From Chlorobaculum parvum NCIB 8327 (GTDB lineage Bacteria; Bacteroidota; Chlorobiia; Chlorobiales; Chlorobiaceae), in contig NC_011027.1 in the NCBI RefSeq assembly GCF_000020505.1, positions 1,720,001 to 1,784,000 of the forward strand: DNA of 64,000 nt. The letters run 5' to 3'. The translations under genes were made by a program, and so were the position numbers. Position 1 is the first letter of the stretch, and each line of letters starts with the position of its first letter. The notes below the pieces were generated by a model. It saw only the letters and a list, made by a program, of their open reading frames with translations. It searched no databases and was not told the DNA's origin. Below are positions 37,881-39,013 of this stretch, piece after piece.

Positions 37881-38138
37881 ATGAAAATACCTGAAGACAA
37901 ACAGAAATACGATATGAGAGCAAGCGCTGAAAAAATAATGCAGGATGCCCTCGACCTGACCCCAGTCGAAAGGGCAAAGATGATTGAGCGACTCTGTCAA
38001 GGCTTCAACAATCCCCGCGAAGCCGAGATCGATACCGCATGGGCTGCTGAATTCGAGTCAAGGCTCGACGCCTACAAAGAAGGCAAAATCAAAGCGTCGC
38101 CAGTCGAAGAGGTAATGGAAAGGATCAACAGGAGATGA
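37881..38138 (+). CDS. Addiction-module antitoxin (TIGR02574 / Unstab_antitox type)
   Basis: An 85-residue protein with the family pattern: ASAEKIMQDALDLTPVERAKMIERL near the N-terminus and WAAEFESRLDAYKEGKIKASPVEEVMERI at the end. Such antitoxins neutralise RelE/ParE-like toxins encoded immediately downstream. Here the stop overlaps an ATG (38135, ATGA) preceded by AGGAG, so a coupled downstream gene once existed, but that frame runs into a REP element within about 15 codons. Confidence 0.8.
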   Translation: MKIPEDKQKYDMRASAEKIMQDALDLTPVERAKMIERLCQGFNNPREAEIDTAWAAEFESRLDAYKEGKIKASPVEEVMERINRR

Positions 38139-38239
38139 ATCTCTTGGTATTATCCTACCGGTACAACAATACAATCCCTGTAGGGGCAGACCTCTGTGTC
38201 TGCCCTTCTTCCAGCTCAATTACTCTGTGAACTAATATA
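38135..38239 (+). pseudogene. Truncated start of the cognate toxin gene
   Basis: ATG 38135 overlaps the antitoxin stop and has a Shine-Dalgarno AGGAG. Translation begins MNLLVLSYRYNNTI and then reads into the REP unit at 38178 (VGADLCV...), stopping soon after. The original toxin was probably cut off when the REP/RAYT block arrived. Toxin identity cannot be told from so few residues. Confidence 0.4.
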
Positions 38240-38271
38240 AGAAAGGGCGAACACGCAGGTTCGCCCCTACG
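38178..38271. repeat. REP pair left of the RAYT gene
   Basis: A rightward unit (38178-38207, CTGTAGGGGCAGACC...) and a leftward unit (38243-38271, ...TTCGCCCCTACG) in the head-to-head arrangement typical of REP doublets, 30 bp before the RAYT start codon. Confidence 0.85.
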
Positions 38272-38300: not shown

Positions 38301-38891
38301 ATGACCGGAAAAAACGAAAATACAGGAAACCGCCGAAGCATTCGACTCAGGAATTATGATTATGCTCAGAGCGGATGGTATTTCGTAACAATCTGTATAA
38401 ACGAACGCCGCTGTCTGTTCGGCAACATCACTGACGATGTCATGCAATTGAACGATGCCGGAGCTATGACTCGTCGATGGTTTAACGAACTGGAAAATAA
38501 ATTCTCAAATTTACAATGCGATGAATTTGTCTGTATGCCTAACCATATTCATTTCATCGTTGCCAACACTGGTAAACCAGAGCATCAACAAACCGTAGGG
38601 GCGGACCTATGTGTCCGCCCTTCCCCATCTGAATCAACACAAAAGGGTGATCCTGACATTTCGGGATCACCCCTACGGAATATTGTGCAATGGTATAAAA
38701 CCATGACAACAAACGAGTATATCCGTGGAGTAAAACATAATCGATGGGAAGCATTCAGTAAACGTTTATGGCAACGCAATTATTGGGAGCATGTGATTCG
38801 CAGCGAAAAGGATCTCTGCGAAATCCGTGAATACATTTGCAACAATCCTATCAGATGGTCGACGGATGAGCTGTATATCCCGAAGCGATAA
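38301..38891 (+). CDS. REP-associated tyrosine transposase (RAYT, Y1 HUH family)
   Basis: A 196-residue single-domain HUH enzyme. The metal-binding HxH is His82-Ile-His84 in VCMPNHIHFIV, and candidate nucleophile tyrosines lie in WYKTMTTNEYIRGV (Tyr132, Tyr140). The C-terminal part QRNYWEHVIRSEKDL and YICNNPIRW is typical. RAYTs are thought to copy or move REP palindromes. The gene sits between two REP pairs, and a third pair lies inside the gene in frame, encoding residues 98-126 (TVGADLCVRPSPSES and KGDPDISGSPLR). The insert lies between the HUH motif and the Tyr region, so activity is uncertain. Confidence 0.9.
   Translation: MTGKNENTGNRRSIRLRNYDYAQSGWYFVTICINERRCLFGNITDDVMQLNDAGAMTRRWFNELENKFSNLQCDEFVCMPNHIHFIVANTGKPEHQQTVGADLCVRPSPSESTQKGDPDISGSPLRNIVQWYKTMTTNEYIRGVKHNRWEAFSKRLWQRNYWEHVIRSEKDLCEIREYICNNPIRWSTDELYIPKR
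38593..38678. repeat. REP pair inside the RAYT coding sequence
   Basis: A rightward unit at 38593-38624 (CCGTAGGGGCGGACC...) and a leftward unit at 38642-38678 (...GATCACCCCTACGG), together a multiple of three in effect, so the frame is kept. Confidence 0.85.
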
Positions 38892-38917
38892 ATAAAACAT
38901 GTCTTACAACATGACAA

Positions 38918-39013
38918 CCCGTAGGGGCGAACACCTGCGTGTTCGCCCTCAGCCAACACAATTATCCTGCGATATGGAATAAAAAGGGCAGACACACAGG
39001 TCTGCCCCTACGG
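38918..39013. repeat. REP pair right of the RAYT gene
   Basis: A rightward unit (38918-38949) and a leftward unit (38984-39013, ...TCTGCCCCTACGG). It lies between the RAYT stop and the end of the phosphoketolase gene and could also act as a 3' hairpin for the latter. Confidence 0.85.

Follow-up and report, generated by a model that had tools for sequence, protein, structure and literature searches.

A pair of GTAG-type REPs in frame inside a RAYT gene of Chlorobaculum parvum NCIB 8327

A pair of cognate GTAG-type REPs lies in frame within a gene for a REP-associated tyrosine transposase (RAYT) of the green sulphur bacterium Chlorobaculum parvum NCIB 8327. We think it probable (about 0.72) that the pair is tolerated there in a permissive loop of this subclass 2.4 RAYT, and that the peptide it encodes is incidental. 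The window, a stretch of 64,000 nucleotides, covers positions 1,720,001-1,784,000 of a single-contig genome of 2,289,249 bp.

The RAYT gene and its REP pairs

The RAYT (TnpAREP) gene occupies positions 38301-38891 of the window on the forward strand and encodes a protein of 196 amino acids. This protein matches Y1_Tnp above the cut-off and TnpAREP 4er8 both by sequence and by fold, with IS200/IS605 TnpA transposases as further fold matches. Its match to NF047646 (REP_Tyr_transpos; E-value 2e-17) is split into two stretches and scores 63.5 bits, below the curated cut-off of 80 bits. The HUH motif (His-Ile-His, residues 82-84; 38544-38552, forward strand) and the putative catalytic tyrosine, Tyr178 of YICNNP (38832-38834, forward strand), were located, and H82, H84 and Y178 were invariant in 50 aligned RAYTs. 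A putative antitoxin-like gene (37881-38138, forward strand; PF09720 Unstab_antitox, E-value 5.6e-14) lies close to the RAYT gene on its 5' side.

Head-to-head REP pairs flank the gene at 38178-38271 (REPs at 38180-38205 on the forward and 38245-38270 on the reverse strand) and at 38918-39013 (38921-38948 forward and 38986-39011 reverse). The internal pair spans 38593-38678 and is translated from the forward strand as codons 98-126, between the HUH motif and Tyr178. Its forward REP (GTAGGGGCGGACCTATGTGTCCGCCC; 38595-38620) is an exact pattern match, while its reverse REP (38645-38676, with the foot CTAC at 38673-38676) was delimited by a hairpin scan and single-stranded DNA folding. The stem sequences of the two arms differ. 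A preliminary description made from the sequence had placed the open reading frame, the HUH motif and all three REP pairs at these same positions. Folded as single-stranded DNA, the internal pair had a z-score of -4.9, compared to -4.6 and -5.2 for the flanking pairs, and none of 200 shuffled sequences folded as well. The internal REP is of the same type as the REPs flanking its own gene.

These REPs belong to a larger genomic family. The window contains 11 copies of GTAGGGGC where 0.58 would be expected, and a 26-nt REP pattern had 43 matches in the genome, whereas the reversed control pattern had none. Roughly 30 genomic copies follow the form GTAGGGGCRRAC...GTYYGCCC, and a second REP type (GTAGGGGCRRTCCCTTGCGG...) accounts for about a dozen more. 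The preliminary description had further proposed that the same pattern would account for peptides of the VGADLCVRP type in other proteins, a proposal that found no support in this genome: a Pfam scan of ten REP-containing ORFs elsewhere in the genome, chosen among the larger ones, returned no match, and these ORFs are probably chance frames.

Neither the 86 bp of the internal pair nor the 82 bp from GTAG to CTAC can be divided by three. Additional junction bases must therefore have preserved the frame, and the precise limits of the insertion cannot be specified. Comparison does not fix them either: the insert is also present in the closest relative at this site, and L048, a RAYT without it, shares only 46% identity. 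L048 has the same VQWYKTMTTNEYIRGV helix, and its lack of the segment speaks against residues 98-126 being an ancestral part of the protein. AlphaFold, given a 50-sequence alignment of the window protein and fetched loci, predicted most of the core with a pLDDT above 90. The values dropped to about 46-55 over residues 91-120, which connect strand 82-89 with helix 124-147. Such low values suggest that the loop is likely a disordered peripheral linker, as in the model of Quentin et al. (2018). The idea that a RAYT gene tolerates, in frame and within a predicted disordered linker, a REP that its own product presumably mobilises is supported, and self-targeting of the RAYT gene is plausible.

Internal REPs in related RAYTs

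We next surveyed 124 RAYTs of this type from relatives, which come from the phylum of the window and include a few loci of other phyla. They were found with a profile of our own, used in place of the NCBIfam model, which mainly catches other subclasses. A Chlorobiaceae MAG (L046) was the closest named relative in this search. Viral contigs, phages and plasmids yielded few relatives and nothing decisive.

Strict REP-like hairpins, defined by a GT[AG]G foot and a stem score of 8 or more, were present in the loop between HUH motif and helix in 80 of the 124 RAYTs, compared to seven in the N-terminal and three in the C-terminal part. Loop hairpins fell to 0 after shuffling and to 2.6 after synonymous recoding of the same RAYTs. 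In five of the seven N-terminal cases the hairpin is formed by nearly the same REP, located at a second site within the first loop; this group includes the other RAYT of the genome (G000:C1:1552991-1553632), whose copy resembles the second REP type. That second RAYT (G000:C1:1552991-1553660; L015:292-960) contains two other REP-like inserts: the one in its first loop encodes VGVALAATHP, and the one in its HUH-Tyr loop encodes RVGARPTPT. Several congeners possess close homologs with the same inserts.

To compare internal with flanking REPs, we used 28 loci with REPs both inside and outside the gene, after removal of tandem RAYT arrays and near duplicates. When the flanks of 45 loci were ranked by resemblance to a given internal REP, the flank of that REP's own gene fell within the top 10% in 24 of the 28 cases and came first in 16. 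REP density was compared across 102 non-redundant loci between the loop, roughly 143 nt, and two 450-nt flanks (900 nt). REPs were found in the loop of 61 loci versus the flanks of 43, with 34 loci having them only in the loop and 16 only in the flanks.

Several further RAYT architectures were observed. The HUH-Tyr loops of L033, L124, L180 and L125 contain tandem expansions of GVGGMND, AVAPNN, VQTGHALSQLSQPTPESP and KYHSPQQIPIN, some of which have apparently grown out of REP-derived sequence. At L019 (G054:C2:2300423-2302062), three RAYT genes lie in tandem, and their loop REPs are of different types (VGAIHELP, VGAGSEPAPT). RAYTs with the same VQW(Y/F)KTMTTN helix (L101/L105 and L048/L051/L050) occur in several phyla; their REPs stand in other orders or are absent, a pattern suggesting that this subgroup has spread horizontally.

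DNA, peptide and the possible role of the insert

Of the forward REP feet in the loop, 52 were read in frame 0 and 19 in frame 1. The remaining forward frame had none; it is barred because the foot GTAG would there be read with the stop codon TAG. On the core tree, a minimum of 14 switches between the two forward frames is needed, but the tree has few columns and many weak forks and this count is given no weight. At corresponding positions in L103 and L116 lie identical 28-bp REPs that are shifted by two bases relative to each other, and the frame is regained further on. Because of this offset the encoded peptides differ (GRGTACRAPT and VGARHAVPL). L107 and L115, which share 89% nucleotide identity, are told apart by a clean 60-bp segment that contains the REP and may be a gain or a loss; a direct-repeat footprint sought by eye at this junction was not convincing. 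We conclude that the REP is a DNA-level element and that the peptide VGADLCVRP... is incidental. Selection on the peptide itself, as a functional linker or a recognition loop, is very unlikely. Peptides of the form VGA...P do recur among RAYTs, as such selection would predict, but related RAYTs translate the same REP in different frames, the loop is predicted to be disordered, and the distance from HUH to Trp varies from about 50 to 136 residues. The rate of change in the insert, described below, points the same way.

The same insert is present in an ortholog (L017/L046) that occupies the corresponding chromosomal position in a different Chlorobiaceae genome. Between it and the window gene, the core has a dS of 0.50 and a dN/dS of 0.22, versus a dS of 0.11 and a dN/dS of 1.4 in the insert, where sites are few. 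By this comparison the core is under purifying selection and the insert, on its few sites, is not. Synonymous changes numbered 2.5 in 24.7 sites of the insert compared to 34 in 93 of the core, a difference that is nominally significant in this one ortholog pair (Fisher 0.006-0.027 according to the rounding used) and may point to constraint or gene conversion at the DNA level. The purifying selection on the core makes it scarcely credible that the gene is a decaying pseudogene in which a REP arrived by chance. RAYTs are indeed patchy among the relatives (28 of 61 genomes), but here the frame is open, every signature residue is present, and dozens of other RAYTs have a REP at the same location.

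In the tolerance reading that we prefer, the disordered loop would accept almost any peptide, so that a REP placed there could persist as long as the frame is kept and no stop is shown. The RAYT itself would have placed the REP in its gene, and the protein with the insert would still cleave REP DNA; we infer that the RAYT acts on these REPs from what is well established for TnpAREP and from the association between the two. Two results sit uneasily with pure tolerance, which leaves unexplained both the higher frequency of REPs in the short loop than in the much longer flanks and the low synonymous change of the insert relative to the core. These same results, together with the match of internal REPs to their own flanks, would be expected if the internal REP were kept by selection for a role in cis, for example as a site that the RAYT binds to control its gene or its mRNA, or as a donor copy that, being physically linked, would hold each RAYT and its cognate REP together. 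Furthermore, REP identity exceeded core third-position identity in 59 of 77 close pairs, which are not independent of each other. Conversely, the internal hairpins of the ortholog are partly decayed (z-score -2.3 versus -4.9 in the window gene), about a third of the surveyed RAYTs have no recognisable internal REP, and gene conversion among REP copies could yield the same conservation. Such a cis role seems to us possible but rather unlikely. Also rather unlikely is the proposal that subclass 2.4 RAYTs retain an internal cognate REP as a useful preferred site, cis-regulatory target or master donor, which the frame merely accommodates. If it were true, the internal copy would tie each transposase to its own substrate.

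The locus is a clear example from nature of a mobile DNA element housed in the gene of its presumed mobiliser, with evidence that the conserved thing is the DNA and not the peptide. The persistence of REPs beside their RAYTs, and a possible cis action of the internal copy, thereby become accessible to experiment.

Comparison with known REP systems

Inverted REP pairs beside a RAYT of the same fold are also found in the REPIN/REPtron of Pseudomonas and with TnpAREP of E. coli (PDB 4er8). These belong to other subclasses, and Quentin et al. (2018; PMC6006769) describe REPs within the tnpAREP gene as predominant in and unique to subclass 2.4. GTAG/CGTC REPs have been reported inside the ORFs of unrelated genes, many of them DNA repair genes, without breaking these ORFs (Di Nocera et al. 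2013; PMC3733652). The window locus shares GTAG REPs within an unbroken ORF, but here the host is the presumed mobiliser. The same paper recalls the Rickettsia palindromic elements, and in its survey CGTC repeats were not linked to transposase genes. Those elements are likewise in-frame palindromic repeats, found in many proteins, but they are CGTC-tagged, whereas the REPs in the window are tagged with GTAG and a RAYT is present.

The closest likeness is to TnpAY1 subclass 2.4, which Quentin et al. (2018; PMC6006769) equate with RAYT group 4 of Bertels et al. According to Quentin et al., tnpAREP genes of this subclass hold in-frame REPs, generally between HUH and Tyr, and the REP-bearing loop was modelled as peripheral. 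Judged by its signatures, the window gene is a member: it has the motifs NH[IFV]H (NHIH, residues 81-84), WQ (W157-Q158) and YIxNNP (YICNNP, residues 178-183), a variable HUH-Tyr insertion of REP sequence with the frame kept, and GT[AG]G-tagged REPs on both sides. Since these signatures coincide with the published description, the locus is another instance of a phenomenon already known, from which it differs in nothing of kind. To the main text of PMC6006769 the present analysis adds the match of internal REPs to their own flanks, their reading in two frames and their density in the loop relative to the flanks.
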